A stretch of 64,000 nucleotides of DNA, taken from assembly GCF_035083965.1 (NCBI RefSeq), contig NC_089736.1, positions 11,742,207-11,806,206 of the forward strand, in the 5' to 3' direction. A model generated the notes under the pieces. It was not told the DNA's origin and did not search any database. It was given only the letters and a program-made list of their open reading frames with translations. Source of the DNA: Branchiostoma lanceolatum. Lineage: Eukaryota > Chordata > Leptocardii > Amphioxiformes > Branchiostomatidae. The position numbers and the translations under genes are program-made. The number at the start of each line of letters is the position of its first letter. The stretch's first letter is position 1. Shown one piece after another: positions 1 to 54,193 of this stretch.

Positions 1-170
1 ATGAAATGATGCAATCAAATGGCATTTATATATCATTTAAATGCTGCTTGTTGTTGAAAAATAATGTGGATTTCCTAATATCGTGTCACTTACACTCACA
101 ATTGTGTTATGATATTCTACAAACTCCTATGTCCAAAGCCATGCCAACCAAACCTGTGTATTTTCCACAG

Positions 171-3100
171 CAATGGCTGACAGACGTGGAAATCTTTGCC
201 GTGGTGTTTTCAGCTGCAATTCATGACTTTGAACATACTGGAGAGACCAACAATTTCCACGTCATGTCTAGGTAAGTACACGTCATGGCTAGGTTTCACT
301 GCCATGAAACTTATGGTGTTAAAACAATCATCTTCTGTCTCCATTACCATTACATGAAATTTCATTGACTTAAAATCTGTGTAATTAGGGTGGAATTTTG
401 TATCACACAACAGACCTTGCAAAATAACTGAAAACCAAACCCATGGAGCTTATGGTGTTAAAACAACCAACATTGCATTGTCAATTTCCATTACCATCAC
501 ATGCAAACGCATTTCTTTGACTTTAAGAATATGTGTGAGTACAGTGGAACTTTGTAATACACATCAGACCTTGTAAAACACCTGCAGACCAAACCCATAG
601 TTTTAAGGCAACGTTTTGATTGACAGTTTTGTATAATGTAATGTTTGAAATGCAGGAGGGTGCTGCATTGGGTAGCCAAATGCTATCCAATACCGTTTCA
701 TACCTTTAGCAGTATCTATATATGTTTTATCATTCTTCCCTACCAGGACGGAAACTGCGTTGGTGTACAATGACAGAGCTGTGCAGGAAAATCACCACAT
801 AAGCGCCGCCTTTCGGCTCATGACAGATGACAACCTCAACATTGTGTACAACATGTCCAAGGAGGATTACAAGTAGGGACTGTTGTAGAATTGTGCACTC
901 TTAACCTTTAGCACAATGAAGTAACCATTTTGCACCCAATTCCCTGTTGGCTACAGAGTTAGGTAGCAGGGAGAAGGTTAAGAACGAGTACAAGTAAAGG
1001 ACTGGCATATGTTAACTTGCACACTGTATTTGTAACTTGTGCGAATTAGAAAAATGCAAAAAAAATGCAACTAATGACATAATATATTACAACAGCAAAT
1101 GTGATGACCATATATTGTTGAAAGTTGTTGCTGAAAATGAAGCATTGCAATGGTGCCCACCCTTACCCGTTAAAGTAAACTTAAACACACTATATCATTT
1201 TAATGTGTTTTTTGTTTGTTTGCAGAGATTTCAGAACGCTAGTGATAGACATGGTTCTTGCCACAGACATGTCCTACCATTTTGCACAAGTCAAGCAGAT
1301 GAAGAGCCTTCTATCTTGCCCAGATAAGTATGTGCATAGTAACATTCATTTATTGAATTGTCAGGCAGTTTAGTGACCTCATTCAATTCTGACGAATTGT
1401 TTTTCCGGGGGCCGGGGGGGGGGTGGTCTACAGTTTAATATGTTCAGTATGCACAAGGAAATAAATAACATTTGTAGCGAATTGTAACTCAGTAAAATCG
1501 TTCTTCCAAAATTGCAACACAGGATGTTGTAACACAAGTAACATCGGATGTATGATAAACAATACATGAAACAGTATCAAATAACCGTAGATTTGTTAAC
1601 ACCTTGCATACAGAACCAGTACTTTGGGGCTCAAAATATAGAACAAATATAACAAGAAACTGTTCATACTTACTTGTTACCTTACCCATAGATAGGACCG
1701 CAATATTCATTTTTAGTGACCCCTTCATCAACTGGCTGAAAACTTTCTTGACAACTCAGCCTCGCCTGTAACGTGACAAAACATTACATAACATGATCTC
1801 TAAGTATAATGACAAAGCAAAACGGCATTGGAGGCTTTAGCGTTCCGTTTTCGTTATAAAAAGACATGTAAAAGTTTGACCTACCGTCGAAAACAGACGA
1901 CATTTTGACCATTGTGGAGCGAACGACAAATTACAAAAGACGACCTCCTATTGGCTGCAGAAGGACACATGGGTCCAATCACAGCAGGCGATACGGTGCG
2001 CCGTAATAACCCGGATGTCTTACTATGACCGCGACACAGAGGTCACGTAAACCTGATTACTCTAATAATGCTTGCGCAAGATGTTACGTAGGTCATGTCA
2101 ATCCCGCATAAGAATAGGATTTGACGATAGATCAGGCTCAATCTTGGCAGTTTTGTCAATCTTTTTGACTCTAATACGATTTTCAGACAAAGGAATGACA
2201 AGAATAGCTTTTACAGACGTGCAAATGGTGATTAGATGTGCCATTTTCATGTGCTAGAAAGTGTGAATGCGCCCTGTCGATGTGTGTGACAACTGTAGCT
2301 CTATGAAAAGGGGCAGGCATGACAAACTTGATAACTCCGATAAACGCAACGGTTGTAGGTGAAACGAAGGCCCAAAGCAATTCGTCTTTGTTTGCGAAGA
2401 GCCTTGTTTTCGCAAGTCGTCGCTGTTGTACCATCATAAACGTTTTTTTTTACATCTTCTTACAGCATTGACAAGGCGAAAGCGTTATCACTGGTTTTGC
2501 ACACGGCTGATATAAGTCACCCTGCAAAAGACTGGACCCTCCACGAGCACTGGACAGAACTTCTCATGGAGGAATTCTTCAGACAAGTAAGTTCTTCTTT
2601 CTCTTGCTTCGATTTGGAACAAGATTCCTCGTGATTGCTCCCCTGATGGGTACAACTATTCAAGTCAAAGGTGTCATTACAGGTTTGCGTAGCAAAACTT
2701 TTGTCGGATCCGTTGGCATGTGTGGTGGCCGCCATCTTGATTTTGTGACGTCGCAGGGTAGCCATACCATTTCATTGGGAGGGGTGTTTTGGGGGGGTCG
2801 CTACCGTTCTCTCTATTTTTAACAAATCGGCACACAACTATCACACATTCAACTCAAATAAAAAAAATTTAATACCAATTCATATTCATAAAAAGTCCCC
2901 ATAATCGCTGAACTAACATAGCAAACCTGAAGTATATGTAGTACAAATACTTAACTCTAGTTATCTGTCATTACAATTCCGTTAGTGTAACCCAAATTTG
3001 AGTGGCTCTAATGAGCCTTGTTTTGTTGTGAGCTGAAGTAAATCAAAAAGAAAACAAAAGAGTATCTATTCTTCTCTCAATTTTCTTGCTGGTTTTCTCT

Positions 3101-6100
3101 GTATTCGTTGTCAGTTTCTGTTAGATTTATGTCGTAATGTACTTTTGAATCCAGTTTTCTTTTATTTTCATTTACTGTATTATTTAGATCATGGAATAAG
3201 ACATTTAAGTATACATTTTGTCCGTCCATTATAAGTCGATAGGAACCTTGACAGAGTGTCATACTATATAGAAGTTGCATTGGATGTGGTCGCTATGTTG
3301 CAATTCATGTAGTTGTTTTCTTCTTATGTAGGGCGATAAAGAACAGGAGCTCGGTCTGCCGTTCTCGCCCCTTTGTGACAGAAAGACTACGATGGTGGCT
3401 TCATCACAAATCGGTCAGTATTTCAAACGTCCGTGAATAATCATCAGGTTGGACTTGTTGGAGAATCACTGGAAAACACTGGGTTTTTTAAAATCTACAA
3501 CCAAGACATACAATAACAACCAGTGACCGTCTGTCACCCTCCCCAGGGCAATTCTGACTTGCAGTATTCCACACTGCAGCTTGGTGTCGCTGCTTACAAT
3601 GCGGTCCCAAACGTATAGAATATCGTAATAAATGGGTCCCTAGCCTGAAGTGTGAAATAGTACCAGTTAGAATTGCCATGAGGAAGATGGCAGACAGTCC
3701 CTGAAACGTCGGCTCTGGTTGTATGTATTGTTTGTGAATAAAAAAAAGTATTTCAAACAGATATTGAGCGTCGAGGGTTGAAAGTTTCAACTTTAACCGT
3801 CTCATATTGAGCCGTATGATTTGCTTCTTTTATACAGGTTTCATCGACTTTATCGTCCAGCCTAGCTTTGAGATCATGAGCGACATGTTGGACAAGGTTG
3901 TAGCGCCTATCTCTCCTCGTGGCTCCTTAGCCAATCAGAGTAGCGCTACCATATCGGAGAAAGTAGAGGGGGAGGGGTCGCCACAAAATGGCGACCAGCC
4001 CGAAGAGCCATTCGAGTTCAAAGTTGACCGAGTGTGGGACAGGCACTTGACTGGGAATAAGGTCAAGTGGAAAGAACAGTCAACCAAAGGTGTGTATTCA
4101 AACTTTGACATACATTTCCTTGGACATTCAACAACTTGCCGATTTCCCTTATGTGGTCATGGGGTTATTGAATAACCCAAAGTGTGCCTTGATATAGTTC
4201 TATCTATATATTCATTCCGCTGATACGTAACTCGTTATTATCTCCATGAAAAAAGACTTTTTCATGGGGATATTGTTTTGAATGTGTTTGCGTGTTTGTA
4301 TGTGTGTCACCGGAAGCTTTAAGTCAGCATAACTGAAGAACGTGTCAATGGATTGTATGTAGGTAGGTGTTAGGAGGACAAAGGTCAAGGTCGATTTTGG
4401 CCCCCCTGGTATGTGTCACTGGAAGAGCAATGGTGTAATTGTCAAAATCTTCTAAGGAGAATAACTGAAGAAAGAAGCAACAGATTTTCATGTTATTTTT
4501 ATGTGAAATGAATGAATTTCTCCTCGAGTTTGATTTCAACTCTTTCTCGCCTTGCTATACTTGGAGTTGGTCAGTGTCACTGACGAAAAGTTGTGGATGC
4601 TACTTAAAACTCTTTCCAAAATTATATCCCGTTGCTTGAGTAACTGCTACTTGGCGTATCTTATCGCCTGGATGTCTAACCTTCATCAACTTGGAGTTGC
4701 TGAAAGTGTTTCGGCGTGAAAGGCCGGCAGCGCCTCCCAGTAACGTCTTTCCATCATCGTTATTCACTATCTGTGTGTCTGGTCGTGTGGCGCCATACCC
4801 AATAGTTGAGTGCATGTATATATGGTAGGTCGTAGCACCCTTCTGGGCGGCCTGTCCTTTATTGCTTTGGCGTGCGGCGGTACTTATATCAAGTGTAAAA
4901 TTGGGTACGGTTACTGTGGGTCAGGCTCTTTTCTCGAAGGCGTATCACGACCATCTGCTTCTTTCTTTAAATAGTTGCCAGCAACTTTTTCCCCATTTAG
5001 CAAACCTTTTAAATTTTTGAGTCTTTTATTCTACAGGACATCTTGAGATTTTTTCAATTCTGACTATATCCAAACGAGCAATATCTGGGTATAATGATAC
5101 AATAGGTGAAGTGAACGTACCCAGGTCACAGCTCATATCACAGAACGGAATTTCAAATCTGCTACATGAAACCCTTCTCTCTTCTACAGACCAAGCAGAA
5201 AAGGAAGCCAAGGAGAAAGCCGCTCAGAAGGAAAAAGATGATTCAGAGCAGCAAAAGCAAAGCACGCTGGACGACAAAGCCGAGGAAAAGAAAGGTGACA
5301 ACCTTACCTGTTACTCCAAGAATAGTTATTCACGCAACTGGATAAAATTTTAAAAATTCTATCTAGATGTTTGAGTAACTATTTTTTGCGTATCTTATTA
5401 CCTGGATGTCTAACCTTCATCAACGAACCCTGCCTGTTATATATAAATATAAACCCCTGAAATGAGATGTCTGAATGTAAGAATTGATCACCCACCGTTT
5501 AGAGATGTGATACACATAAAGCTCCATCATTGTACAAATTGGACTAAACGATTACACTTTGCCAAGTCGCTTGGGAGTAGATATTTGTATCTTTAAATGT
5601 TTTTTCATCTTTTATTCTTTTATTGCAACATTTAAATACAGGACATAATGACGACATACTCAATATTACAACTTATAACGTGTCGCCATCAACAGAGTAC
5701 ATTACAAAAGTACAAAATAAATAATACAAATACTTAAAATGAAAAACAAATGCGGACATGCAAAGCACAGGAACAACAAATTATCTAAAATAAACTACAT
5801 GACAGTAATCTTGAAATGTAAGAAAATTGAAATCAATATACAGATAAAAATGTGGGCAGGTACTACAAGGCTGGTAGGATGGGGTTTTGCTACTCAAATC
5901 TTTTGGTTTCTTTTATGAATAGCTGGACGTACTGTAAGCGTTTGCCGTTGTTTGAATTCGCCGGGAATGTATATGTATCTAATAGTATATATAGCCGGTA
6001 TAACCGCCATTCGGCGTAACACACCAGCTTCAGCAACTGGAAGGTGCAGCCTTTGAGCAATAAGTGAATTAAGGCATTATCATAAAGATTATTGAAATTA

Positions 6101-6351
6101 ATGTTTCAGATCCTGAAAATCCACCAAAGATCACAGCTAACGGAACAGTGAGTCCCGGAGACGCTGTCGATCAGAAAGTCAAACCGTCGACCTCTCCGGA
6201 AAACAAGGAGCAAGCGTCGACAACAGAAGAGGCTGCCGGGAAGGCCTCTCCGGAACACGCCGAGAAAACATCGACGGAAGAAGAGAAGACCGGGAACATC
6301 GAGAGTATAACTGTGAAAAGCGTGACCAAACGGAAAGAATCCGGTGTCTGA
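171..6351 (+). CDS. PDE1: PDE1-like calcium/calmodulin-dependent 3',5'-cyclic nucleotide phosphodiesterase, C-terminal half (5' partial)
   Basis: Hydrolyses cAMP/cGMP to 5'-nucleotides; PDE1 enzymes are cytosolic and activated by Ca2+/calmodulin through an N-terminal region that lies off the left edge. Exons by splice sites and phase: 171-271, 747-872, 1226-1327, 2466-2586, 3332-3413, 3838-4089, 5190-5294, 6110-6351 (1131 nt, 376 residues plus TGA). The first exon has the PDE metal motif HDFEHTGETNNFH; the second has YNDRAVQENHH; the fourth has HTADISHPAKDW, whose Asp is a metal ligand; the fifth and sixth join as GDKEQELGLPFSPLCDR and SQIGFIDFIVQP with the nucleotide-selecting Gln. The first metal-binding His motif (HNxxHA) must be upstream. 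The two last exons encode a Lys/Glu/Ala- then Ser/Thr/Pro/Glu-rich tail, probably disordered. All introns are GT-AG. PDE1 subtype assignment is from remembered PDE1A-C sequences; vertebrate paralog A/B/C cannot be chosen. Confidence 0.94.
901..981 (+). mobile_element. 81-bp MITE with TTAACCTT termini, copy 1 (PDE1 intron)
   Basis: Begins TTAACCTTTAGCA and ends GAGAAGGTTAA, so the ends are inverted repeats of about 8 nt. A second copy of the same 81-bp length is at 8431-8511. No coding capacity. Confidence 0.6.
2680..2929 (+). mobile_element. ~250-bp inverted-terminus element (CAGGTTTGC ends), copy 1
   Basis: Starts CAGGTTTGCGTAGC and ends CATAGCAAACCTG. Nearly the whole 250 bp is found reverse-complemented at 38797-39052. 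Lies in a PDE1 intron. A + frame at 2604-2822 is open through it, but shows no known protein. Confidence 0.65.
4575..4690 (+). repeat. Dispersed repeat D (ACTGACGAAA ... CTTCATCAAC), copy 1
   Basis: Shared blocks are GTCACTGACGAAA, GTTGCTTGAGTAACT, GGCGTATCTTA and CTGGATGTCTAACC. Other copies: 5338-5424, 12940-13032, 17076-17197, 55962-56082 (+) and 56705-56775 (-). The wording resembles 3' tails of non-LTR retroelements, but no ORF is attached. Confidence 0.55.
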
Positions 6352-9838: not shown

Positions 9839-9871
<33 letters not shown>

Positions 9872-10032: not shown

Positions 10033-13000
10033 ATGGCGTTGTGGCATGTCAACATCAGCGATCTCAGCACGTTGAACGTGGACCTCGAAGATCTTCTCGC
10101 AATTTCGGATGGACTGGCGTGCCAAGAGAGATTCAAGAACAACTCCGATACAGGTAATCCCATAAAAGCTGTTTTAGCCCAGTGTGTTGTACTTACAACT
10201 CGTCTACGAAATTGCAAGTTGACATTGTAATCTTTTTTTTAAACTACGTTGAACGAGTAGAACGTTGAGAATTTGAAAGTTTTGATTCAACGAGAGAAGA
10301 GATGTCTTTCATTGCTCTGCATTGAAGAATCAGCTCAGTCAGATCAACAACGCTCTTTTGAATAGTAAGAACCAAAAAGGGCAAATAGCGGAACACCATG
10401 GCAGGCTAATCAGGTTCCACCCCGGAGGTGCCGCGACAATGTCAAACCTTGACACCTTGAAGAGCAACGAGATGCGCGACCTATAGCAGACTTCCGGCAA
10501 CAAATTGGCTCCTTTGAACAACAACAAAAGTACGGAATGAAAATGTTGCTAGGAGAAGTCTTTGTGAAGCTACCTTGACTACCTTGGGGTCACATAGGTT
10601 ATCTTTTCCCGGCATCTTGTTTCTTAGAAAATGGCTCTTCGGTGCAAAAATAGCAGCGTTAAGCGGCCATCATATTTAGACGTGCTAAGCGGATATTATA
10701 TTTAGAAGTTCAAGGTAGTGAAAATGCAGAGTTTTGTCAGTTCTAAGGATTATTCAGTCCACTCATGTCCTCTTGTCATATTCTGCATGCAGAAATTGGT
10801 TGGTTCAATGACTAAATAATTGGTCTAAAGCTATATTGGCCCCTTGCCTTATGCACCGTGTAACTGTATGTACTAGCAAAGTTCGTAGTAGAAAAACAAG
10901 ATTCACATTGAGAAAAAAAAAGATTCAAACGAGCTGTGAAACTTGTTTGTGGCCTCAGTGTAGTAAAAAACAAGATTCACGCTGAGAAAAAAATATTCAA
11001 ACGAGCTGTGAAACTTGTTTGTGGCCTCAGTGTGATAAAAAACAAGATTCACGCTGAGAAAAAAATTCAAACGAGCTGTGAAACTTGTTTGTGGCTGTAG
11101 CAGCCCGCTGATTCGGTGTTTTGAAGTGGCATGTGGGAATTATGCATAATTCCAGCCGAACACAAATTGGCCCCCTGGGAATACGAAACAACACACCTCA
11201 TTGCAAACATGTCACAAAATATGAATGGTGGGTGGGAATCATTTGCTGTGCCATTGCCTTCCATACATGTAGATATATTCGTAATACACTGTATTTTCTA
11301 TGATACAGAACGCAGCCCACGTATTACCTGGACTTGACAGGTTAATGGCAGCCTAGTTTTATCAGCACCTACTTGAGCATGTACGAGTAAGTAAGGCGTA
11401 AAAACATCCGTGACTACGTGTATTTCGATTTGACTAAAAGCCGATTTGATTCAAGTCTCATTATGAACATCCCAAAAGGCATGCCAACGAGAGAGTCAGT
11501 CGATTATTTTCGAGTCCGTGTCTAATTTGAATGCAATACTGCAGTCAAGATGGGGAATAGGCTTTTAACTGATCTTGCGTCAGCGTGCATTAGAACTCTT
11601 TAATATGATGAATAAGATGAAAGAAACCCTGCTTCAGAGCTACCAACGTGTGAATGAGATGTCTGACAGCTGATTATTATTAGTCTCTACCAGACTTTAG
11701 GTATAGGTTGCTGGAAATAGTAGAAATTGGCAATTCGACTTAATGATACCCCATGCAGAGGAGTTAGCCAAAGTTACAGGAAACAACTCTGGCTGGCTAA
11801 CTAACTCCTCTAGCGTATCATTCAAAGTACAACGTATTTGCCCACTTTCTGCTATCTTCACTTAGGGAGTCCGAAGTCCAGTAGAGACTATATAGATAAT
11901 TATAAGGCACTATATTTTGTACGTTGCAAAAAAATCCCATGGCAGTAGTCATACGACATTTCGCAGTTTCTAATCAATGATTCCCGGATGAACGCTGCGT
12001 TTATTTATTTTATCCGTATATGTTTACTGAGTATTAGGCAGGAAGCGATTGCTTATTTGAAGCCTTCTACTCAACACATACAACAAAGAGACATAATGAC
12101 ATGCATAAATACAAAATGAATAAAAGGAAAATAACAGTAGACAGTACAAGTTGGTATCCATCATTAAATGAATCTGCCTGTACAATGGATGTAAGCATGA
12201 ACTATATCGAGTATGTTACAGTTTTGTAAGTATGAGAGTGACGTGGAACCTCGTAACAGAAGAGAACATATTGAACTGTCGTTTATGTTTATTTGATGTA
12301 TGGCCAATTTATGTACATGGTCTTTTCAAATCCATTATAAAAATCATCGGTCTGTTAGAAATCTTAGCTCTTTGGCGCTTCACAACGGATGTGAACTATC
12401 TAGAAACATTACGCTAATAACATTGTTGGCAACCCCCTAGTGCTTGAAGGCAATAGCCTCCGTTTTCTCACCGCACTAACGCCTTCAATCAAGTCAACAC
12501 CCACTACTGCTTGACTACAGTGCCAGCACTATCGCGAAGAGCTTGTACTATTATGGGAACATCATACTGTGTCTAAGACTGAACGGCTAAGGTCGAGAAG
12601 CGTGGCTGCCTATCGAAGGAACATTCTGGAAATAAATGCACGTTTCAGGCTTCGTGCATGCAGCATGTGTATCTTAATCCAGCCTTTCCAGGCAAATGTG
12701 GCGAAAAGCTTATATGTCCTGTCATAAATATTCCGTGCAAACTTTCTTTTAGACGCCTTTGCAGAGACTTTGAATAATACAGGGTATCTTTCATGGTCAT
12801 TTGAATAGATGTGAATTTATCATATTATTTGTCTTATAATGGTTCCCAATTGGACTATGTAAAATTTGTCTTCACTTCATTTACTTATCAATCTTTTATA
12901 GTTTTCGTTAAAACGTTGGGAATCGCAGATCTAGTTTCAGTCACTGACGAAATATTGTGGATGCTACCTGAAACGTCTGACCGTTTCTTTAATCTATCCA

Positions 13001-16000
13001 GTTGCTTGAGTAACTGCCACCTTGCGTATTTGTACACACATTATACACTATTACAAATGTGAAATAATTTAGGTCTCGCTCCATTTCTGGTGCTGCTAAA
13101 ACCAAAGCTGCTGTCGCTGCAGAAAAGAAACATCTATTCCGCAAAGTTCAAGCTGCAAGTGCTCCCATTGCCAGGTCTTACCACATACGCTTTATGCATG
13201 CTGGTGTGTTACGCTGAAGGGCGGTTATACCGGCTACATAGATATAGATACAGATACATGATTCGCTATAGATGTTTCTGGTCCAGAGCACCTTCATTAT
13301 CCGCCTCCAGAACAGAGTTTGGCGGGCCATAACAACCCTGAGACTTCTCCATCTTATTAAGAAGATATGGGATTTCACGACTGAATGCGCAAGGCGAGTA
13401 GCGTTGCGTTATAGACTTTTTAGTTGTTTCAATGTTAAAAAATACATGAACGGAGCTTGGTTGCATACATGTATAAAGTTACAGAAGGCAGTTTCATTCA
13501 GATTGCGTTATAAAAAAACTGTCGCAACAAAAGCATTTCTACAAAAACATCACATCTCTATTTCAGGATATGCTTGAAAATGTTTAATTGAATGGTTATG
13601 AACAGGAGTACTTTGTGGAGCTAAAAGTGTACAATTTTACTGTTGAAGAGGCTGCCAGGACACGTGTTACCGCGTGCCACTTCAATTGAAGTGAACTTAA
13701 CCGCACATTGCAAGCTTCAAGTACACACGTGTCCTTAACGAGAACTTTCTTTTTTTTAACGAACTCGCTCAGTGCAAGGCCGTAGGGGGCCACTCATCGA
13801 AGAACTGAACTTAGTCTTACTGAAGCAGCATCTCTTCACCCTAGGCCAGAAACATCAATGCTCAAGACAAGCATGACTTCACTGACTCATTAGGAGAAGC
13901 AGGGGTTACGAAGGAAATTCCCTATCCCATTTAGACCGGAACGTTTTGAGCCACGCACACCGGGGCATGCCCCTACTCTTTTTCGAAAGATGTGGTGGGT
14001 CTTTTTTACGTGCTCAAGGTGTGGCTCTCCTCAAACACGGGGCCTCCATTTAACGTCCTATCCGAGGGACGTCCCGAGACAAAGCTAGGTACTCATTTAC
14101 ACCTGAGTGAAGTGAGGGATTTTGTGTTAAGTGCCTTTCCGAAGGGCACAACGTCGGGTGCATGTCCAGACATGTCTGGGGGCAAGCCGGAATTGAACTC
14201 GGGCCACGCTGTTTGACAGCCCTATGCTCTCACCATTACGCCACACCGACGCCATTCCGCTTTTATGCGGATTATGCTTGTACATGTGAGTATATGCCCA
14301 AAAGTGTACGGTAAATGGTCTTGAAAATGATCCGAGCACCTTACATACATTTAGCTACAACAGTCTTCGAAATGGTCCGGATACCTTATGTAAATTCGCT
14401 ACTACAGTCTTCAGAAATGGTCCGGACACCTTATGTAAATTCGCTACTGCAGTCTTCAGAAATGGTCCGCACACCTTATGTAAATTCGCCACTGCAGTCT
14501 TCAGAAATGGTCCGCACACCTTATGTAAATTCGCTACTGCAGTCTTCAGAAATGGTGCGGACACATTATGTAAATTAACCACGGTAGCGAAACTGGATGA
14601 ATATCTATTTGACCTTTCAAACAGACCAAGAAATTACTAGTGATGGTACATTTTTTCGACATCTGCTAACAGCAAAGTGACACTAGCTACAGTGCTAACA
14701 TGAAAGACACAGATGTAAAGAGATGATTTTGTAATTATTTTTACAGCCCCAAAACGAATACCTTTGTGTAATGGGCAAAATGTCAGTAAACATGCTCACC
14801 TTTAAAGTACCGATCAAGGGAATGTGAACTAGGCTTCAGTGAGAGGCAAGAAATACACGAAGTAACAAGGTGAGAGAATAGCTCCTGCACTAATCACAAA
14901 TTAGCTTCAAAGACCTACGGGATCTGAGCTAATCAAAAGAGTGCCATTTGCCAACAGCGTTGTCTAAGGCATGGCGTCAACTGCGTATCTAATTCTTTCA
15001 TCACAACACACGCTTAAAGACATGGACCGTAAGGCTAGTAAATTCCATTAACCCGATTAGAGCCTACAGGAGTTCGCTACCCCCAGACCCCGGGAAAGAC
15101 CACCCAAGAGATGCATGGAAAGATCAGATCGTGAAGGACACTGGGTTAAACATTCGGGAAGCAGAGGCTAGGGCAAAGGACAGGACTTCTTGGAGGATCC
15201 ACATGGAAAGCAAGGGGCCAGTTTCTGGCCTGTGCACGTGAAGTATTAGAGTACCGATTGTTTTTACACGAACTAAAAGGTTGGCAGGTTGCTGAAATTC
15301 CCAATAGTTTCTCAAGTGATAGTTGAACTTTTAGAAAAAAAGTATGTTGCAACATAAGCAATGTAGTTCTGTTCAAGGTCTTAACTGATAATATTTATAC
15401 TTTAATCACAAAAGTTACTTATTAGGCAAACCGCGGAACATCAACTTTTTCCTGCCTGCAAAGAGCAAGTCAATCAATAATGAATGTAAAACTTGACAGT
15501 AGGTTATACACCATGTTCTGGGTTCACTGTCTCTTAATGTAATAAGCCTTCGGGCATGACTTCACATTAAAGATAATTATTGTTGTGATAAATGAAGACG
15601 TCAACTGCATCTAGGCAGTCCACAGAACAGTGACATCGTTAATGTAGCATGTTCGTGACTGTCATTTAAAATTAAACGCTCTTAAAATGCGTGCAAATTT
15701 ACACACTAGAACTAGAAGCCTCAAACAGAGCTTCCAAAAGCAATAAGTCGACGGATTCCTTAAACTTATGTACGAATGGATGGATGGATAAGTTGGTTGA
15801 TAGATGGATGGATGGACCGATGGATTGATTGATAATGGATGAAAGAAAGCATTTATGCCATGATGATTCGATTAATGCCTATGCACATACATGTAGCTAC
15901 GCATAAAAAATGCAAATATCTTCATCCATTTTGAACATGTATCTCCTCATTTATACTGATTATTCAATCTAGAATAATGTTCTGATGACTTTAAGACGTT

Positions 16001-19000
16001 ATGTGGTGCATACATAATGTTATTATTAAGTGCCTAATTCAATCTAATTTTGCCCGATGGTAATAGTTCATGAAACGGTGCTCATTGTGGCATCCTTCAT
16101 GTCATCTAGATAAGACATTTGGAAGGTCTTCATTAACCCAGGGTCTTTGAATGAAAGCTCATCTGTGTTGGTAGAGTATGTATTGTGAGGTTTTGAGTTT
16201 TGATCCAACACAAAATAAATTCATGGTGAGTTCCCTTCTTTTTGTTGGATCTTAGCTGAAAACTTCCATCCAGGGTCTTCATAATGGCCTCATGTGTCTA
16301 CTTTGTAATGAATTATTCAACCATTATTCTTTATGTTATTCTACGCGCATGTCATGCGTATACATATAAGCATCCATAGGATTTTAAAATGTATACGGAG
16401 ATTTCAGCTTTACATTGCTTGGTTTAATCGGAAATGCTGATCAGAACCCCATGAAATAGTAGGAAATGTCACTACCATAAAGATTTCAGCATTTTTTTTT
16501 CTCCATATTTTGGGCCCTAATATTGCTTTGGCTGCCTTTAAATATACACAATGGTTTAAATCGTTATCATTATGTTCTGTCACATTTTCAAACGTTTTAC
16601 ACATGTCTCAAGTCACGGAAACGCTTTCTAATATACATCCTTTTAATTAACAACGTGCTTTGGGCTGGCAGCATGTCCCTAGATGTTTGCGTCAACTTAA
16701 GTGCACTTAGAATAACATATGTACGTAATTGCAGAAAGAGCGCTAAACGCTACTCCTCTGCCATTTTCACCATCTGCAACACAACCAGGGACACTCATTC
16801 AATCTCGAATCCACGGACATCCTAAATCGTGAATCCCGCTGGTTTCGAACGGGGAGTTAGAGAAGCAACGCTTTAAAATCAGACACTTGGGATAATGCAC
16901 TGCCCAACACCCCCCACCCCCGGACGAACCACATTTAGTTACTATAATAAAACAACAGAAGCTAATTGAACTATTAGCATACAACCTCGCCTTGAATTAA
17001 CTTCCTTTGAAAACTACGTAAAGACATATTTATTCAGAGTTTTGGTATAAATCTTGTTTTCCAGTCCTATCGTTAGTCACTGACGAAAGACAGCGGATGC
17101 TGTCGACGTCAGAAATGTCTGTTTCAAAATTTTATCCAGTTGCTTGAGTAACTATTTTTGGCGTATCTTACTACCTGGATGTCTAACCTTCATCAACGTA
17201 CGTATGGAATGTTTTGGCACGAGAAGCAAGTTGAACTATGGTATGAGTACCCTGAACACAGGGAGATTATTTCAACTAATTTTTTGTTACATAAAAGGTT
17301 AACACCAAGTCAAAAATATACTTCTGAGCTTGCACTTTGGAAGTAGAAATATTCAAAATAAAAATGCATTACATGTAGTGAACTTGAGTGCTAATGGAAA
17401 AACCAATAGCATGTCTCGTCATACTAACAAGTAAGAGTACTGTTACACAAGTTGCAATGCAGACGGGGTCTTAGCATCTCTTGTTGTATTCTTTTCACAA
17501 AAAGTGGTTATAGATGTATTGCTAATGGGAACATCTGTTATAAAGCTCAACAAGAAGGCTCTACTCGGAATGAATTATTTGTCGGTAGATTAACTGTAGT
17601 CTGCTTCCTCTCTTACACATTTGCAACGCAGCCTTCATGCCTTGCTTTCAGCAGAGTGGCTATGCTTCTTTGATGTTGTGTAGTCATTCAGACACATCAA
17701 TGAAATGTGTGCAGTGCTCCCTTTGCCCTTACATACGTCAACGGCACGTCTGCAAATACTTGCAGAGAGTTGAGGGTCTCAAGTGGTTCCCACCACTACA
17801 GTAGAAGCTGTGGCAAAATGTGTTTTGGATGTGTGTCTGCGAATGGAATTAATGGCTTCACATTTTAAGATACAATTACGATACCAAAGAAAACTTTGCA
17901 ATTTGTAGTGGATTGCTACGTAGTAGTAGTTGCTTGATACAATGTGGGTGTTGTAAATGTGTTCAACCTGGCGGTGAAGTGCTTTGAGTCGCACGTGAGT
18001 AGAATGTATGTCCTCAAAAGTACATGTTCAGCTGAACTCCAAATGGGCCAAGCGCAACCAACGCACAGATATCTATAGAACAACCCACAGAGCGAACAAA
18101 CAATCTGCCATATAAAGTTAACTGTTCATAGCTTATCAAAACTACCACACGTCAAGCTTTGCTAAAGCCAAACAGTTGAAATGGATTTTCACAGTAGGCA
18201 TTGTGTGAATGACAGATTACTATTCACAAGCTAGTGCATCGAATCATTTTTAACGACTTTAACTTCTGAAAATCTACGAAGTACAACGACTCTCTCTCTT
18301 GCACCTAAAACAGGAAGTGACTGTATAAGGGAAACAATGAAGTATAGAGAACATACCAACAATCTTTGGATTTATTAGAACTTCAATTATGTATCTTGTA
18401 TCAAGTAAGTCATCTTGATTATACAATATATAGTCAAGTAAGTCATGTTGATTATACATTATATAGTCAAGTAATTCATCTTGATTATACATTATATAGT
18501 CAAGTAAGTCATGTTGATTATACATTATATAGTCAAGTAATTCATCTTGATTATACATTATATAGTCAAGTAAGTCATGTTGATTATACATTATATAGTC
18601 AAGTAATTCATCTTGATTATACATTTTATAGTCAAGTAAGTCATGTTGATTATACATTATATAGTCAAGTAATTCATCTTGATTATACATTATATAGTCA
18701 AGTAAGTCATGTTGATTATACATTATATAGTCAAGTAATTCATCTTGATTATACATTTTATAGTCAAGTAAGTCATGTTGATTATACATTATATAGTCAA
18801 GTAAGTCAACTTGATTATACATTATATAGTCAAGTAAGTCATGTTGATTATACATTATATAGTCAAGTAAGTCATCTTGATTATACATTATAAAGTCAAG
18901 TAAGTCATGTTGATTATACATTATGTAGTCAAGTAAGTCGTCTTGATTATACATTATATAGTCAAGTAAGTCATCTTGATTAAACATTATGTATTTTGTC

Positions 19001-20339: not shown

Positions 20340-20372
<33 letters not shown>

Positions 20373-32993: not shown

Positions 32994-32999
32994 CTCCTT

Positions 33000-37700: not shown

Positions 37701-40700
37701 CAAAGATGTATTTTTCCTACCGGGATTCAATATCTATAACAGGTTTAATAGTAGCCTGTGTTTTGAGGTGGAACTAAACTGGTGCATGGTGTTTGCTGGT
37801 GCTTCACTGGCATCCATGCAAGAGCGCCTCCTAGTGGTCCTACTTACTATTGCACATATCTCCTGTGCTAGTCGGACGTTGCGAGCGTATCCTTCCTCTT
37901 GGCTTCCTTCGTTTGCCAAGAGAACGACGAAGTAGACCGTTGGAAGGAGGTGGCTCCATATGTTTACAGTTTCGTTGGACAGGACAAACAGGCTGAGGAG
38001 TAGAATTTTGGCTTTATTATCACACACTTGAAGTTGATGGGGGAGGGGGGCATTATGAGAAGGTGACTATACACTTGTGTTGTTTTAAAGAGTTATATAT
38101 CCCATAATCACAGGCATTGTATTTTTAATATGTTTATCCACGTAAACCCCAGGGTGGGGGAAGTGTGTGTAGGCTCGGTTGTTTATCAACAAAAGAGGGC
38201 TCAGCCTCTCTTGATTGATCGATTAAGTTCTATCTATCTATAAGCCCATTCGTAATTCCGACTACGCATGTGCAGTGTCAAAGGTAAAGGCCCATGAGAC
38301 GTAAACAAAACCCGTCTGGGTGTTGTTATGCAAATCTAGACAATGTCCAGACGAGAACTGTTTACAAGCCAGGGGCCTTCACCTTTGACACTGCACATGC
38401 GTAGTCGGAATTACGAATGGGCTTATTCCATCCATCCATCTATCTATTCATTTGTCTATTTATCTATCTGTTGTCGATATCTGTCAATATTCATAACTGA
38501 TGATCTATCCAAATGTACAAAAAATGTACAAAATATTGGATAGACATGGACTACATCAATGTTAAGTCTACTGTTACTGTTGTACATAATACATGTAATT
38601 AAGAGTGTAATAGCAATGTTGACGTGCACGTGTGTGTTTCAAATGTGTGTTTTTTTTCGTAGCACATAGTATTATTTGTTACGTCTTAAACCTCCTTGCT
38701 CAATCTGAGCGGAACTGCGACGTCAGCAGAGGGTCAAAGGTCAGACAGATGAACTTTCATACGAACTAGAGTTAAGTTTTTGTGCTACATATATTTCAGG
38801 TTTGCTATGTTAGTTTTTAGCGATTACGGGGCCTTTTCATAAGAATGAATTGGTAATGAATTTTTCTTTTTATTTGAGTTGAATGTGTGACAGTTGTGTG
38901 CCGATTTATCAAAGATAGAGAGAACGCTTCAGCGACCCCAAAAAACACCCCTCCCAATGAAATGGTATAGCTACCCTGCGACGTCACAAAATCAAGATGG
39001 CGGCCACCACACATGCCAACGAATCCAACAAAGGTTTTGCTGCGCAAACCTGTAATAAAAGACACAAACCCTTTGATGCACTCCCACGTGGTGAGGTTGA
39101 CCCTGTACCCGTGATAGATGTAGGCCCGCTGGACCTCCTCCCGTAAGGTCGGGCTCAGGTCATCGGCAGTCAGCAGGCCGCTTCGCACTGGGAGGAGAAA
39201 GAAGTCAACCAGTTAGATATGTGATCCCACCCGCGGTCGGGCTGGTACCTCGGATGATACGGAATACCCCGTGTTGTATTCTATTTATGTCATACCCACC
39301 CGAGAAAGCACACATTTCAATGCGGAATTCGCCAGAAGTTGAGCGAGTTTTGTGTCCTCGAACAAAACACTGTAACAACAAAAACCTGTAACAACATTGA
39401 TTCCAACCTCCGAATCCGGTATTCGAATTTTCGACGGCGGCGCAACCGGCGCACTCGAAATGCATTCGAAATATTCTATGGAAGCCCGTGTGATACAACT
39501 CTAGAACCTCATGTGATACGGATAGTTATCAGACGGTCCAGAACACCCGTATCAGGCCCAGGGATGACATAAGCGAAGGTTAGATGTGACAGGTCATTCA
39601 GTGTAAAAAAAAAGGAATACAACCAGCTGCTGTCGCCACGCGTGCACGCAAAACTGGTGTACTGTTATGCCAAAGGGCGACCACATCGGCTATACAGATA
39701 CCGTGAGAAAACACATGTAGTTTTTACCCTTTTATTACCTCAAGGAAAAATGGATCCGAGGCATTTTTTGGTGTGTCTGTCTATCTGTCTGTGTTTCCGG
39801 ATATTTGTGATCGAATGATAGGAATTTCATACTTGTGACATGTGTAAGTTAGGTGTACATATGCAGGCAAATATCATATAAATGTGTGAGCCATGTGCAT
39901 AATTCAACCATTTCGTGGAGGTATGAGTTTTCCGAACTCTTCTTGTTGAAACAGCGTTTGCAATTGGTATTAACATTAATACAACCAATACAGCTTTAGA
40001 GTTAAATGATAAATAATTGTCTTAATCTTCCTTAAGATAATAACATTGAGAAATCGGATATACTAAAATGTATTTTAAATCTACCAATGCGTTAAAAATA
40101 CTAGTATTCGAAAGCTAAACGATGTGAACATTATATTTGAAAAACTGGATTGGATCATGTTTCAAATACATTAATCCTAGCAATATCAATATCCGATATT
40201 TCTATTTATAGGACTCCAGTGTGGTCATGAATTCCTCGGAAGCCAATATGGTTGGTGAGTCGCTGTACATCCGGGTTCTCAGACGCTCGATATAGTGCAA
40301 TATGGCAATCCACAAACCGACAGACCGTAGAGCAGGGGGCTTTCAGGGACCGTTCGTTTCAGGTACGATATGGACAGCAGTGTTTATTCGTTTGTTTTAT
40401 AAATCGTAATCCCTATTGAAGAAGGATAGCCTCGTACCCACACGATCGGGAGCTCCAGGGTATCTCTACGGTGCTGTGATTGATGCCCGCCCGCCTAGGT
40501 ATATTAGCGTACACGAGGGTTGTTTACGGGGTTGATCTCAGTAACTATAAGCTCGCTCCCGAAGCGACGATAGCTTCAGCTAAAAGACAGGTTGCCAGAA
40601 ACAGGACAATGCTTAGCAGCCGGGCCCGGTAAAACACACCCTAGCCGACATGTCGAAAATGGTGACCAGGCTAGAAGAAGAAATGATAAAATGATTTTCC

Positions 40701-43699: not shown

Positions 43700-43700
43700 T

Positions 43701-43749
<49 letters not shown>

Positions 43750-44139: not shown

Positions 44140-44346
44140 ATAAGCTAGTTCGGAGCTGTTACTACGCATGTGCAGTGTCAAAGGTGAAGGCCCCCGAGAC
44201 GTGAACAAAGCCAGTCGGGGCGTTGTTATGCAAATCTAGACAGGTGTTATGCAAATTTAGACAATGTCCAGGCAAGCACTGTTTACAAGCCGGGGCCTTC
44301 ACCTTTGACACTGCACATGCGTAGTAGCAACTCCGAACTAGCTTAT
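44140..44346 (+). mobile_element. Foldback element family A, copy 3
   Basis: 207 bp. Outer arm ATAAGCTAGTTCGGAGCTGT then TACTACGCATGTGCAG, mirrored on the right with minor changes. The interior holds a partial duplication (GTTATGCAAATCTAGACA and GTTATGCAAATTTAGACA). Confidence 0.87.
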
Positions 44347-45643: not shown

Positions 45644-45674
<31 letters not shown>

Positions 45675-48189: not shown

Positions 48190-48231
48190 TGTGACGTGTA
48201 GCTTCTGACACTGTTTCATATATACCTACAG

Positions 48232-48258
48232 GGCGAACACAACACACAGCCTTTGAGA
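48232..48258 (+). other. 5' UTR part of the first coding exon of the sialyltransferase
   Basis: A good acceptor (ATACCTACAG at 48222-48231) precedes the start codon by 27 nt, so the transcript probably begins in a separate non-coding exon upstream. Candidate donors followed by GTAGGT are near 47534 and 47739; neither is proven. Confidence 0.5.
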
Positions 48259-51200
48259 ATGAGACCCATCCTCAAGATGTACCTCGTCCTATCATGCTTC
48301 GTGGGACTCACCACTGTCCTGATGTTATTCAAATTAAGGTAAGGTCACAGATTCTCAAGATACTGATCAAAAATACGAAGATATAGTTGTAGATTGAGTA
48401 AGCGCCTGCGAAACAGGCATGTATTGTGTTGTCGTCCTGTCAAGGCCATTTGCCCCCCTGGTATTTGAAAATGGCTTCAATTCAGTTCTTGTGACTAGCA
48501 AAGGACAAAGAAGGGTGAGGCACAAACCTTAAGGTAGTCCTATGGTCTTTTTTTAAGGCCTTAGGGGCGGTGGGTTGTAATCCAACGTGTCTAGGGCACG
48601 GTATTCGAAGGTGGAGCCCAACCCTCTCCTTCCACCGCCTTTTGCCTCCCAACCGAAATCAGGTCGCAATTTTTACACCTAGGTGAAGTGAGGAAAGTCG
48701 TGTTTAGTGCTTTTCCCAAGGGAACAGCATCGGTAGCATGTCAGGGGATTCGAACCCGGGACCAATACTGACGTGGCTATGTGGCGGTACAACTGGCCAT
48801 AAGAATTTCCTCAAAGAACGCTAAGGTCTAAGAATAATCGAAAGTAGGTCGTTACAAGAAGGACAATACATATAGAAACTCATTCAAATATACGTCTAAT
48901 GCTATTATATATATATATATATATAGTTGGCCTACTTCAAAAGAAGGTTGACATTTATCTGTATTGTTCGCATCCACAATTTTTCATTTTTTTGATAAGC
49001 TTTATTCATAAAGCAAAAGAAAATAAATACGGTTTTATAAAATACCAACATGCAGAAAATTGCATTAAACGGTTACGTTAAGCTTTTTCTTGTTACGAGC
49101 ATATATATGAGTCTTGAAATTTGTTAATATTTGAAAGCATTTGCTTGATACTTCAGAAATACCCTGAGGCAAAATATGCTGGACAGAATGAGCCGGCCGC
49201 GGGTGCAGTCAGTCCCACAATTTGAAGAAGCGCCACACGCCCATGGGGACAGGAATTACAGCACGAATGCAACGGAAACGGAAATGGGAAAAATTGTTTC
49301 CTCAATCGAACGTGGGTGGACCTTCAACCATGAAGAACTAATGAAGTTGAGGTGAGATGTAGAATCTGTATTATAGTATAAGCATTATTGACTTTGTCTA
49401 ATTTTTTTTCCTATTGGCCTATCTAAAATTGTCGTCACTTTATTTGCGTATCGATTCATAGTTCATGGTTGATCGACAAATTTTGCTCAGAGTCACTGAC
49501 GAAAAGTAATGGATCCTACTTGAAATCCGCTAGGTGTCACTGCTAACAATGCGGTCCCAAACGTAAAGTATTGTCACATACATAGATATTGTTAAGCAAC
49601 AATGCTGAGTTAGGGCGGTCCCAAATGTGAATAAAAAACGGAGCTCTTGTTAAATATTCGGTTGTGAATAAAGAACGTTATTAGTCAGTCATCCACCAAC
49701 CTTATGAAATTACATGTATATGAATAGTCCTTATTGGTGTTTTTAACAGGACAAAGTTAGCTGTCATACATACAAGGGACGACTTCACACTGACTCGCAA
49801 AAACACGCCCCTGCACTCAGTGGTTCCATTCACGTCAGACAAGTACAAGCGGAAGCGCAACGTCACAGAAGACTTGTACAACACGCTACCCCAGGTAAAT
49901 AAAACAATTTTACACATTTAACAAGTGTAAATTTTACAAGTGCAAGCGTGGAGCAAATATGTATCTTGTGTATGATTGTGTATTATGTGATTGTGAACCC
50001 TGCAGTAAGTCAGCACTGGCTGCCATTGCACGGGTAATTTCTTACCAATAAACCATTTTTACATTTAGGGACAATCCATAAGAACTGTATGGCATGTCAG
50101 CAGATAGCAGGAAATATCTTCCCCATCGTTAAAATATGTTAGATATTATATAACGTTTATTTGGTCTTCCAAAAAATAAAAAATACGTCTTGAATATAGA
50201 ATAGTTACATTATGATTCCTGGCCCATGCCCGTAGCCAGGGGGGGTTCGGGGGGTTCGGACGAACCCCCCCACAGGCTTGAAGGTCCACTTTCACAGGCT
50301 TGAAGGTCCACTTTTCAATGTTCAAGATTTTTTTTCAAGGCAGACTTATTTGTATTTGCATCAACAGCAAGGCCACACAGGTTAGAATCCTAGAAAAAAC
50401 TGCTCACTTTGACTTTGTCTCTGATTTTTCCTCTCAAATTCTCTCAAAAACACAGGAAATGCCGTTTCAGAAGGTTCAATTCTTAGAATTTGAAACGCTC
50501 CAGGGTCCACTTTTTAACGCCCAATGTTGTTTATTTCAAGGCGGACTTATTTGTATCACCAGCGGGGCAGGAATCCTAGAAAAACTGCTAACTTTGTCTC
50601 TGATTTTTTTCTTTGAAATCCTCTCAAAAACATGGGAAATGCCATATCAGAAGGTTCAATTTTTAAAATTTTCCGGGGGGGGATACCCCCAGACCCCCCT
50701 AGAAAGCTCGCGCCTACGGCGCTCGATGGTCCCTCAAAGATTAAAAAGAACCCCCCCATTCAAAATCCTGGCTACGGGCATGTGGCCAATGTCAAATGAA
50801 TGAAAATATCATCATTGCTTCTTTTTTTTCCAGATATTACAATGTAGCCCCTGACCAAGGGTTTTGCCCATCTTGTCCAATGAAAATTGAAGATGAATTT
50901 CACTTTGTCTTTGAATGCTCTAGATATGATGTTTTACGTCATATGCTATTCACACTTCTCAAAACAAGTACAAGTTTTAAGAGTCTCGATGCTACACACC
51001 CTTTTGAGTACATATTTAAATGCAACAATCCCCACAATGCGAACATAGGTAAATATCTAAACGACTGCTTTCACATTAGAAAAAATCCTGAAGCTAATGA
51101 TTAAATCAATGATTATTACACAATATCGAAAACGTATGCTAGCCCTTATTGTATTGTATTAGTAATTATGATGTTCAGTCTTATTCTATACTTATACGTT

Positions 51201-54193
51201 TATGTTAACGAATTCTTGCCATACCTTGTACCATGTACAATTGCCGTGCAATAAAGTTCTTCTCATGTAATTGAATTACAGGAACCCCCAGATTTTCAGA
51301 CAAAACGCTTCAAGAACTGCAGTGTAGTCGGAAGCAGTGGGATCTTATCGAGAAGTGGATGTGGTCCTCAAATTGACTCCTCTGAGTTCATATTCCGGTA
51401 GGTGGACGCATTTGTTCGTACAATAAAAATAAGATTTTGTATAGTCAATAGTCTAATGGTCCAAAAATGACGAGATCGCACTTCTGTAGAAATCCACCCT
51501 CATTAAATTAGGACCCCTATCGCTCCACGTTAGCTCACTCGCGTAGGGGCCCTGATCTTCAGCGCCGGCCGGTAGACACGATTCTGGCGACGTCACCACC
51601 AAAACAGCTTCAGCCAGTCAGAGGGTTTGCTAAACCTCATCTGAGGCAAACGCGCAAAGGACGCTGGGAAGCTATCAATCAATCAAGCAGGTTACGTCTC
51701 ATATCGTTATTTTAGGTTCAGAACAAATTAACCGCCAAATAAGAATAGCTCATTGATTATTCATGAGCAACTGTCAGTAACGGTGCCAGAACCATGTCTA
51801 TCGGCGCTGAAATTCAGGGCCCCTACGCGAGCGAGCTAACGTAGAGCGATAAGGGTCCTAATTTAATGAGGGTGTACAAATCGAGAAACGTTTCCTGAAG
51901 TATCGAAATGAGGATGACAGAGATAGGTGTTTATCGTTGCCCTTGACTCGTAGAAAGCTTCCTGCGAAGGGGAAGGGGGACCTCGTGAGCTCAAATTTGA
52001 CCTCCACTTCCTGTCAGTCTGTGCCTTCACTTCCTGCTAATCTACTGTATTCAAACTACTACAGGCACGCAAGCAAACACACAAACAGACACACCGGACC
52101 AAAAAAAAACTTACACGGGGGTAATAAGGTCGTTCACGATTCAGAATACGCATGCGCAGCGACGTGTATTGTGGGTAATATGTCAAGGGTGAAGCCCCCT
52201 GAGACATAAACAAAACACGTCTGGACATTGTTATGCAAATCGAGACAATGGTCGAGGAAGAAAACGGTTTACAAGTCAGGGGCATTAACCTTTGACCTTG
52301 CGCATGCGTACTCGGAATTGATAAGGACCTTATTATTCTTCTCATTCCAGGTTCAACCTTCCTCCTCTCGTGAAACAGTACACCGGTGACGTAGGAAAAA
52401 GGACGGATCTTGTAACATGTAACCGTCATAGGTTGAGCAAAAGGTCAGTAACATGTTGTATCTAAGACTAGACACATCAGTTTCAGTTTATTCATTTCGC
52501 CAGGGTACCAGTGATCTGTTTAAATAATGTAAGTGTCAATTAACTGTCTTCCTTCTTGTTTTGCTTCCAGGCTATCTAAGTTGGACTCATCTAAGGACAG
52601 AAAACTTTTCAAAGGGATCTTGAACGGACAGTTTCCGACTTTGTCATATATCTGGCTTTTCCCCTTTTCTGTACTTAGCGACGTGAAGAATATACTATCA
52701 TTTCCCGACATATTGGAGAAAATAGGGTCTCCCGTAAAGGCCGTCTTTAGCAATCCAAGGTACAGCATTCGTAGCAAAAGATTCTGGCAGAAAAATGGCG
52801 TGAAAGAAACGTTAATGACATCTGGTAAGTAAGCAATATTTTGTATAACTTTCTTACAGTATGGCAAAGGGCTGACTAGATATTATTTACAAATATGATA
52901 TTCAAGTACGAGATCAAAAGGTACAAGTAATCGAAGCGTTGTGTAATATTTAAGGAGAAAGACCTGATTTGTTCTTGCAATGTTCCTTACAGACACAAAT
53001 CCTGCACGCGATTATAATTGCTTGCTTTTAGTCATTCTGGATGATGAATTGAACAAGATTGTGACAATTTGAGAATTTCCGAAAAATCATGGGATATCTA
53101 TTGTTCTCCTCCCGTACGTTTCAACTTCGTCAGCTTTGCTTTTCATGTGACATATATTGTTATCCTCCCATAGGTTTGACCTTCGTCAGCTTTGCTTATC
53201 GTGTGATATCTATTGTTATCCTCCCGTAGGTTTCACCTTCGTCAGCTCTGCTTATCAAATGATATCTATTGTTATCCTCCCGTAGGTTTCACCTTCGTCA
53301 GCTTTGCTTATCATGTGATATCTATTGTTATCTTCCCGTAGGTTTCACCTTCGTCAGCTTTGCTTATCATGTGATATCTATTGTTATCCTCCCGTAGGTT
53401 TCACCTTCGTCAGCTTTGCTTATCATGTGATATCTATTGTTATCTTCCCGTTGGATTCAACTTCGTCAGCTTTGCTTATCATGTGATATCTATTGTTATC
53501 CTCCCGTAGGTTTCACCTTCGTCAGCTTTGCTTATCATGTGATATCTATTGTTATCCTCCCGTAGGTTTCACCTTCGTCAGCTTTGCTTATCATGTGATA
53601 TCTATTGTTATCCTCCCGTAGGTTTCACCTTCGTCAGCTTTGCTTATCATGTGATATCTATTGTTATCCTCCCGTAGGTTTCAACTTCGTCAGCTTTGCT
53701 TATCATGTGACATCTATTGTTATCCTCCCATAGGTTTGACCTTCGTCAGCTTTGCTTATCGTGTGATATCTATTGTTATCTTCCCGTTGGATTCACCTTC
53801 GTCAGCTTTGCTTATCATGTGATATCTATTGTTATCCTCCCGTAGGTTTCACCTTCGTCAGCTCTGCTTATCATGTGATATCTATTGTTATCCTCCCGTA
53901 GGTTTCACCTTCGTCAGCTTTGCTTATCATATGATATCTATTGTTATCCTCCCGTAGGCTTCACCTTCGTCAGCTTCGCTTTAGAAGTGTGCGATGAAGT
54001 TCACGTGTACGGCTTCTGGCCGTATTTGGTGGACCGGCGCGGCAACGAGATAGGCTACCACTACACTGACGATAATCATTATGGGAGGGGACTGACCACG
54101 CGTGGACACAAGATGCCGCGAGAGTTTGCCAAACTACTGGACATGTACAAGAAAGGAGTTTTGAGACTCGTGACAGATAAATGCCTTGCATAA
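48259..54193 (+). CDS. ST8Sia-type alpha-2,8-sialyltransferase (GT29), ST8Sia1/5/6-like
   Basis: Golgi type II membrane enzyme that transfers Neu5Ac from CMP-Neu5Ac to a terminal sialic acid. Exons: 48259-48338, 49157-49351, 49750-49894, 51282-51397, 52351-52443, 52571-52824, 53958-54193 (1119 nt, 372 aa plus TAA). Residues ~7-25 form the signal anchor after MRPILK. Sialylmotif L spans ~152-190 (VVGSSGILSRSGCG, then FRFNLPP and DVGKRTDLVT); motif S is ~295-317 (FALEVCDEVHVYGFWP); motif III is YHYTD (~328-332); motif VS is H345-x4-E350. Cys153, Cys167, Cys306 and the C-terminal Cys370 fit the ST8 disulphide pattern. The C terminus (YKKGVLRL...C) resembles ST8Sia1 more than ST8Sia2/3/4. Oddity: the normally near-invariant Asn of VGN[GS]G is Ser158. 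The start ATG is the first in its exon, which begins at the acceptor 48231/48232. Confidence 0.94.
48560..48780 (-). mobile_element. tRNA-derived SINE-like element, reverse orientation
   Basis: Contains GGTGAAGTGAGGAAAGTCGT, TTTTCCCAAGGGAACAGCAT and GGGATTCGAACCCGGGAC, the reverse of the B-box text at 36868-37005. Sialyltransferase intron 1. Confidence 0.55.
50221..50787 (+). mobile_element. Non-autonomous element with GCCCGTAGCCAGG termini
   Basis: Left end ATGCCCGTAGCCAGGGGGGG; right end CCTGGCTACGGGCATG. Subterminal G-runs on the left and C-runs on the right pair with each other. The interior is two diverged copies of a ~250-bp unit (AAGGTCCACTTTTCAATG, CAAGGCAGACTTATTTGTAT and counterparts). 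It keeps a 167-aa frame open by chance. In sialyltransferase intron 3. Confidence 0.7.
50830..51262 (+). mobile_element. LINE (non-LTR retrotransposon) 3' fragment
   Basis: The + frame ending at 51104 carries the C-terminal Cys/His knuckle of LINE ORF2 proteins: CPSCPMKIEDEFHFVFECSR, then Y-x-x-LR. After the stop comes a tail with TTGCCATACCTTGTACCATG and a final CAATAAAGTTC. 5'-truncated, directly after the element at 50221-50787, in the same intron. Confidence 0.8.
51496..51873 (+). mobile_element. MITE with ~90-bp inverted arms (sialyltransferase intron 4)
   Basis: Left arm from ACCCTCATTAAATTAGGACC through CGCGTAGGGGCCCTGA to TTCAGCGCCG; the right arm is its complement with a few differences. 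378 bp total, with no coding capacity. Confidence 0.82.
52123..52334 (+). mobile_element. Foldback element family A, copy 4, abutting a splice acceptor
   Basis: Arms AATAAGG ... TACGCATGCGCA and the counterpart TGCGCATGCGTA ... CCTTATT, more diverged than other copies. The right end is 16 bp from the acceptor of the exon at 52351, so the polypyrimidine tract starts directly after the element. Confidence 0.75.
53101..53957 (+). repeat. 56-bp tandem array carrying copies of the last-exon acceptor of the sialyltransferase
   Basis: About 15 units of 56 bp. Each reads like TCCTCCCGTAG|GTTTCACC then TTCGTCAGCTTTGCTT, matching the real junction CTCCCGTAG|GCTTCACC at 53957/53958 and 24 nt of exon. 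The remainder (ATCATGTGATATCTATTGTT) is filler. Variants include CCATAG, CCGTTG and TTCCCG. Every decoy acceptor is in the same phase as the real one but hits a stop (the TAG of the next acceptor) at the end of the unit. Confidence 0.96.

Follow-up and report, generated by a model that had tools for sequence, protein, structure and literature searches.

The DNA analysed here, which we call the window, is a stretch of 64,000 nucleotides of Branchiostoma lanceolatum (NC_089736.1, positions 11,742,207 to 11,806,206). Four genes were modelled in the window, namely PDE1, a class B GPCR, an ST8Sia-like sialyltransferase and a PAQR-like gene, and together they contain 57 modelled splice junctions (28 donors and 29 acceptors). 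The PDE1-like gene is represented by its 3' part, 8 exons at 171..6351 on the + strand (Pfam PDEase_I, 9.3e-73). The class B (secretin-family) GPCR gene at 10033..32993 (+) has 11 exons and encodes 446 amino acids as modelled, from a putative start; it matches 7tm_2 (8.9e-53) and HRM (1.2e-16) in Pfam, and its best PDB relative is CRF1R (6.6e-52), to which residues 30-289 and 328-404 of 446 were aligned. The sialyltransferase gene at 48259..54193 (+) has 7 exons and encodes 368 amino acids as modelled (Pfam Glyco_transf_29, 1.6e-48). Its best PDB relative is ST8SIA3 (3e-34), and the alignment covers residues 49-366 of 368, including those across the array junction described below. The PAQR-like gene lies on the - strand at 36250..39187 (Pfam HlyIII, 2e-14); 5 exons were found, and the edges of exons 3 and 4 are provisional. 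The number of stop-free GT-AG chains within a few nucleotides of the chosen edges was 1 for PDE1, 2 for the GPCR and 1 for the sialyltransferase. The predicted exon models are thus supported independently of the arrays by GT-AG chains, Pfam matches and PDB alignments. No Rfam match at the gathering cut-off was found in the window. A scan for promoter-like sites gave 2 against 1.3 in shuffled sequence, and one for terminators gave 0; both scans are bacterial and of no use here.

When a gapped local search was made around each junction, a junction-crossing copy within 3 kb was found at 5 of the 57 junctions. The scores of these five loci are 40-67 and that of the next-best junction is 18. Four of the loci are in the GPCR gene (acceptors 27110, 29740 and 31728, and donor 31111) and one is in the sialyltransferase gene (acceptor 53958), so that one clear donor and four acceptors are present and both 5' and 3' boundaries are represented, as the first-pass annotation of this DNA had noticed. 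In the PAQR-like gene, mirage-grade copies were found at none of 10 junctions (best score 16.5). The repeated units are 56, 110, about 147, 181 and about 240-280 bp long and include 5-56 nt of exon, both ranges reaching beyond those first proposed (units of 21-181 bp with 24-53 nt of exon). At all five loci the working copy is the one continuous with the full exon, and the surplus copies lie on the intron side, just as had been claimed. In four introns, 36-79% of the length is accounted for by surplus copies, a range that rests on hand-entered lengths and, for intron 24615-27109, depends on the unit chosen. The claim that tandem arrays straddle splice junctions therefore holds for five loci in the GPCR and sialyltransferase genes, and the observation of exon-edge tandem copies is largely real; the small PDE1 case that had been added to it is near background, as described below.

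The most regular array is found at the acceptor of the last sialyltransferase exon, where tandem-repeat finding (TRF), copy alignment and the gene model give exactly 16 units of 56 bp at 53086..53981 (+). The junction is 53957|53958, each unit carries 24 nt of exon, and the working copy is the last one (53926-53981). Two exonic bases of the working copy, both synonymous, are absent from all 15 surplus copies. By these two private bases the working copy at the array end is excluded from homogenisation, a point tested in this array only. Among the surplus copies, 3 of 4 exonic changes alter the amino acid. Variants recur in distant copies (2 and 12, 7 and 13, 3 and 14), which fits block-wise unequal exchange. 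The acceptor AG is not protected in the surplus copies, being intact in 12 of 15 and ranking among the 6 lowest of 55 dinucleotides for conservation. Over the final 20 bases of the intron, 9 of the 15 are identical to the working acceptor. A premature stop results in all 15 copies if they are used directly as acceptors, including the 12 with intact AG.

Two acceptor arrays precede GPCR exons. At the TM1-exon acceptor 27109|27110, TRF and junction-crossing alignment reveal a compound array at 24931..27147 (+) with units of about 240-280 bp (~257), 38 nt of exon and five surplus junction copies (25156, 25413, 26412, 26594 and 26833). By eye, an inner array of 4.4 units of 152 bp (25736-26404), which has no acceptor, lies within it. 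AG is intact in 3 of the 5 surplus copies. A premature stop follows from each of the four surplus acceptors tested, and the fifth copy has lost its AG. At the TM3-exon acceptor 29739|29740, an array of 7 units of 110 bp occupies 28972..29744 (+; TRF and copy alignment) and includes only 5 nt of exon (TACTT). Its six surplus acceptors all retain AG, differ from the working one by 1-3 bases in the last 50, and all lead to a stop when used directly.

The 616-nt GPCR intron 31112-31727 has a mirage at each end. At the donor of the TM5/ICL3 exon (31111|31112), TRF and alignment show a unit of ~147 bp in 2.5 copies at 31056..31421 (+), in which the last 53-56 exon nucleotides and the donor are repeated twice more, the copies ending at 31258 and 31409. 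At the TM6-exon acceptor 31727|31728, two copies of a 181-bp unit with 26 exon nucleotides were aligned at 31411..31753 (+), giving one surplus acceptor at 31546|31547. Counting the working copies, about three quarters of this intron belongs to a copy of one or other of its edges. Direct use of the surplus acceptor 31547 and of both surplus donors leads to a stop (1/1 and 2/2). In the donor set, the working copy has one change of its own, a synonymous one, and of the surplus changes that were counted 3 are synonymous and 2 are not; owing to a tie, a further synonymous change (CTA to TTA) in the first surplus copy was left out of the count, and two altered bases in one codon entered it as two changes. 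Exon 30921-31111 also encodes residues 290-327, ~38 positions of intracellular loop 3 that are left out of the CRF1R alignment, and the stretch duplicated at donor 31111 falls mostly within them.

Across the five loci, all 24 surplus splice sites with intact AG or GT lead to a premature stop when used directly, and the surplus sites are probably not used productively. Since many of them match the working site locally and their direct use truncates the protein, the choice of site, if splicing is normal, must depend on something besides the immediate sequence of the site, for example on the following exon. The usual proposals would be exon definition or the degradation of mis-spliced transcripts. 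It is conceivable that the surplus copies have instead been kept for splicing, as alternative acceptors or donors or as cassette mini-exons. The two surplus donor copies are readable as in-frame mini-exons, 31196-31258 (63 nt) and 31353-31409 (57 nt), which repeat a stretch of intracellular loop 3. Each is preceded by an AG in matching phase and leaves the reading frame open, and the predicted protein would have 467 or 465 amino acids with one mini-exon and 486 with both. The exonic part of the first donor copy has also diverged less (2/53) than the adjoining intron (11/77). However, an AG in phase is often expected close to a copy by chance alone (about 0.4 per copy by our own estimate), and three AGs have been lost in the sialyltransferase array. 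The 181-bp acceptor copy has the opposite pattern, with more divergence in the exonic part (7/26) than in the intronic part (11/60), and the donor pattern thus carries little weight. Together with the 24 stops, these points make retention for splicing quite unlikely. The synonymous and nonsynonymous contrasts between working and surplus copies, drawn from the sialyltransferase and donor sets only, prove little because the numbers are small.

Tandem repeats also occur away from exon edges. Three arrays found by TRF lie deep in GPCR intron 1 at 10885..18990 (+), with 2.9 units of 72 bp, 5.8 of 45 bp and 17.9 of 33 bp. They touch no known exon and are therefore counter-examples to an exon-edge rule. 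Among 17 genic tandem loci, 11 have no contact with a known exon, and the proposal that minisatellites seed on exon edges as a general rule is not supported by this count. The 33-bp array (18401-18990) contains 13 AAGTAAGT motifs, which are 5' splice-site-like cores; in the whole window, on both strands, there are 18 against 3.2 expected. It is a putative natural decoy or U1-binding array. Derivation of this array from the exon-2 donor, suggested by TCAAGTAAGT shared by eye, was considered and rejected, as a 10-base match to the donor consensus is no evidence.

The small repeat at the PDE1 donor 271|272, two copies at an offset of 21 (258..294, +), is present in the sequence. It is one of 7 short pairs, at 6 places, outside the arrays in the window, and by our arithmetic the chance that one such pair touches one of 57 junctions is about 0.08. 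The case is thus near background and unremarkable. In the same PDE1 intron, a degenerate tandem duplication (300-600, offset 139-154) follows the small repeat and stops short of the junction.

Several other repeats were noticed in the window. A dispersed repeat, ACCTGGATGTCTAACCTTCATCAAC, is found at 4666, 5400, 17173 and 56057 (+) and at 56705 (-), five copies with up to 2 mismatches in a search that tolerated 3. Prokaryotic and viral contigs searched with a dispersed repeat of the window gave no exact match. Palindromic MITE-like elements were seen by eye at 38240-38405, 44160-44325 and 52140-52320; the first two have ends like ACTACGCATGTGCAGTGTCAAAGGTGAAGG, and the third is seemingly related. 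An element of ~250 bp is seemingly common to a PDE1 intron (2650-2900, +) and a PAQR intron (38790-39060, -), and by eye both copies begin directly after ATTACAG. An open reading frame in a sialyltransferase intron (50745-51104) resembles by eye the C-terminal tail of a non-LTR retroelement, a family to which we presume it belongs.

Raw overlap of arrays with junctions was discarded as evidence for preferential placement, because 9% of all window positions have a local copy and because long arrays near exons reach junctions by length alone. In an ungapped 30-bp test, local copies were present at 4 of 57 junctions, compared with 9.1% of all positions. When gaps were allowed, 5 of 57 junctions against 119 of 600 random intronic positions reached a score of 25, and 6 of 57 against 159 of 600 reached a score of 16; Fisher's p for the comparison is 0.05, towards depletion. 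Comparison of junctions with random intronic positions was the one by which the first-pass annotation had proposed to judge its rule, and within this window it gives no enrichment.

The per-base test counts array length and is thus hard on the rule, and therefore events were counted too. Each array was reduced to one unit, and the compound array was taken as one event. The 17 genic loci were listed by hand as tandem repeats with a unit of ~20 bp or more inside gene spans; microsatellites and the dispersed pair of 734 bp at 4662/5396 were left out. The lengths of units and of collapsed introns were also entered by hand, and the PAQR exon 3/4 edges in these tests are provisional. Six of the 17 loci straddle a junction against 2.3 expected (p 0.014), or against 1.3 (p 0.001) when placements that are wholly exonic, span two junctions or contain >60 exonic nt are excluded. 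Without the small PDE1 case, p becomes 0.059 for unrestricted and 0.007 for restricted placements. When 20 nt on each side is required, 4 loci are observed (p 0.068 and 0.004, gene spans), and with all 23 loci of the whole window the two p values are 0.003 and 0.0002. Conditional on the intron of each event, 3.0-4.2 of the 17 loci are expected to straddle (p 0.03-0.16), and p is 0.11-0.38 without the small case. Among genic arrays with at least 2.5 copies, 4 of 7 straddle a junction (p 0.0016-0.027; intron-conditional, 0.006-0.027).

The earlier judgement that chance placement is implausible is therefore not confirmed, as there is no enrichment per base and p per event extends from 0.0002 to 0.16, or up to 0.38 without the small case. 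Because the junction hypothesis was formed on the same window, the excess of tandem events at junctions is a suggestion and no demonstration. Any such excess is probably modest and may stem from short introns and long units. If exon edges were mutational hotspots in this lineage, with breaks, stalling or recombination seeding duplications there, this would account for the 6 of 17 straddling loci and for the 4 of 7 multi-copy arrays, and would be in line with independent gene-level reports from lancelets, as far as their accessible text goes (PMC3087553, PMC3902484). However, conditioning on intron length and the 20-nt requirement both raise p, the per-base comparison shows nothing of the kind, and the published cases are open to noticing bias. 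We regard such a hotspot as fairly unlikely.

A mechanism tied to splicing, in which duplication would be templated by RNA or R-loops, had also been put forward, and the sole point for it is that donor and acceptor versions both occur. The sequence of the units argues against it: a G-quadruplex motif was found in none of 10 units tested, GC skew of the six junction units ranges from -0.33 to +0.11 with no consistent G-skew, and the edges of the units are found at variable distances from the junction, between 5 and 56 nt inside the exon. Moreover, the copies contain contiguous unspliced exon and intron DNA, and arrays of comparable size also occur well away from all known exons. This mechanism is extremely improbable.

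We consider it probable that these mirage minisatellites arose by undirected tandem duplication and unequal exchange, with one copy held in place by coding selection. Segments between some tens and a few hundred bp long would be duplicated in tandem by ordinary errors of replication or repair, and later expanded and shuffled through unequal exchange. When a segment happened to cover a junction, coding selection would preserve as working junction the copy that continues into the full exon, and the remaining copies would end up in the intron, making it longer. The anatomy of the arrays, the position of the working copy, the stops after direct use of surplus sites and the block-wise sharing of variants are observed; the mutational process and normal splicing are what we infer from them. 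Unit edges have no fixed offset from the junction (KS test for departure from uniformity at six loci, p 0.21, with low power), and 11 of 17 genic loci lie wholly within introns, as would be expected if duplication were not directed. Two findings go against undirected duplication: the per-event excess is significant under several nulls (p 0.0002-0.03), and all 6 surplus AGs of the 110-bp array are intact. Since duplications that straddle a junction should be tolerated less than those deep in an intron, the excess may reflect a mutational or retention bias.

Arrays of this kind are known in amphioxus. The first-pass annotation had named 'mirage minisatellites', correctly, and the present arrays match the kind described in the accessible parts of PMC3087553 and PMC3902484. 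According to the former, mirages occur at both 5' and 3' boundaries in the globin genes BflGb6 and BflGb9, where intron gain was proposed; Gb6 has 6 and 3 units, unit lengths are 150-160 and 157 bp in the globins and 10-72 bp in Adh3, and splicing of Adh3 and the globins is regular despite the mirages (PMC3087553). In lancelet PGBD5, tandem repeats of 60 and 108 bp, including a triplication of 3 x 108 bp, lie over 5' and 3' splice sites and reportedly leave splicing undisturbed, and Adh and TnC are also cited (PMC3902484, accessible text). Our arrays resemble the globin and Adh3 mirages, as far as these are described there, in that the unit spans the intron-exon boundary, both kinds of boundary are involved and surplus copies are intronic, and resemble the globin mirages in that the copy at the array end is outside homogenisation (here in the sialyltransferase array). 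They resemble the PGBD5 repeats in lying over splice sites of both kinds. That donor and acceptor mirages can coexist is thus already in print.

The present arrays also differ from those described in these accounts. There are up to 16 copies here, in genes other than PGBD5 and against 6 and 3 units in Gb6. Units of 56, 110 and 147 bp are within the 10-160 bp of the globin and Adh3 mirages, whereas 181 and ~257 bp are above it, this being a range and no definition. Unlike the globin mirages, four junctions in one gene are affected and one intron has both a donor and an acceptor array, all known from the DNA of one haplotype. Intron gain by tandem genomic duplication, in the text available (PMC4974935, PMC3443670), likewise involves duplicated segments with splice signals, but a new intron arises there whereas existing introns grow here. 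In C. elegans, minisatellites near alternative exons have been described (PMC4039745, accessible text). Our literature search, in which subscription papers were thinly covered, found no genome-wide test of arrays at amphioxus splice junctions. New here are the stops from 24 of 24 intact surplus sites, many of which match the working site, and a 616-nt intron made mostly of copies of its own edges.

Mirages are natural tests of how the cell chooses a splice site, and they show introns growing from copies of their own edges. It is unlikely, in our judgement, that exon edges are true duplication hotspots and that surplus boundary copies form a lasting reservoir for new exons and for intron lengthening. 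If this were true, the two donor mini-exons could vary intracellular loop 3 of the receptor, and hotspots at junctions would bear on the origin of new introns and exons.
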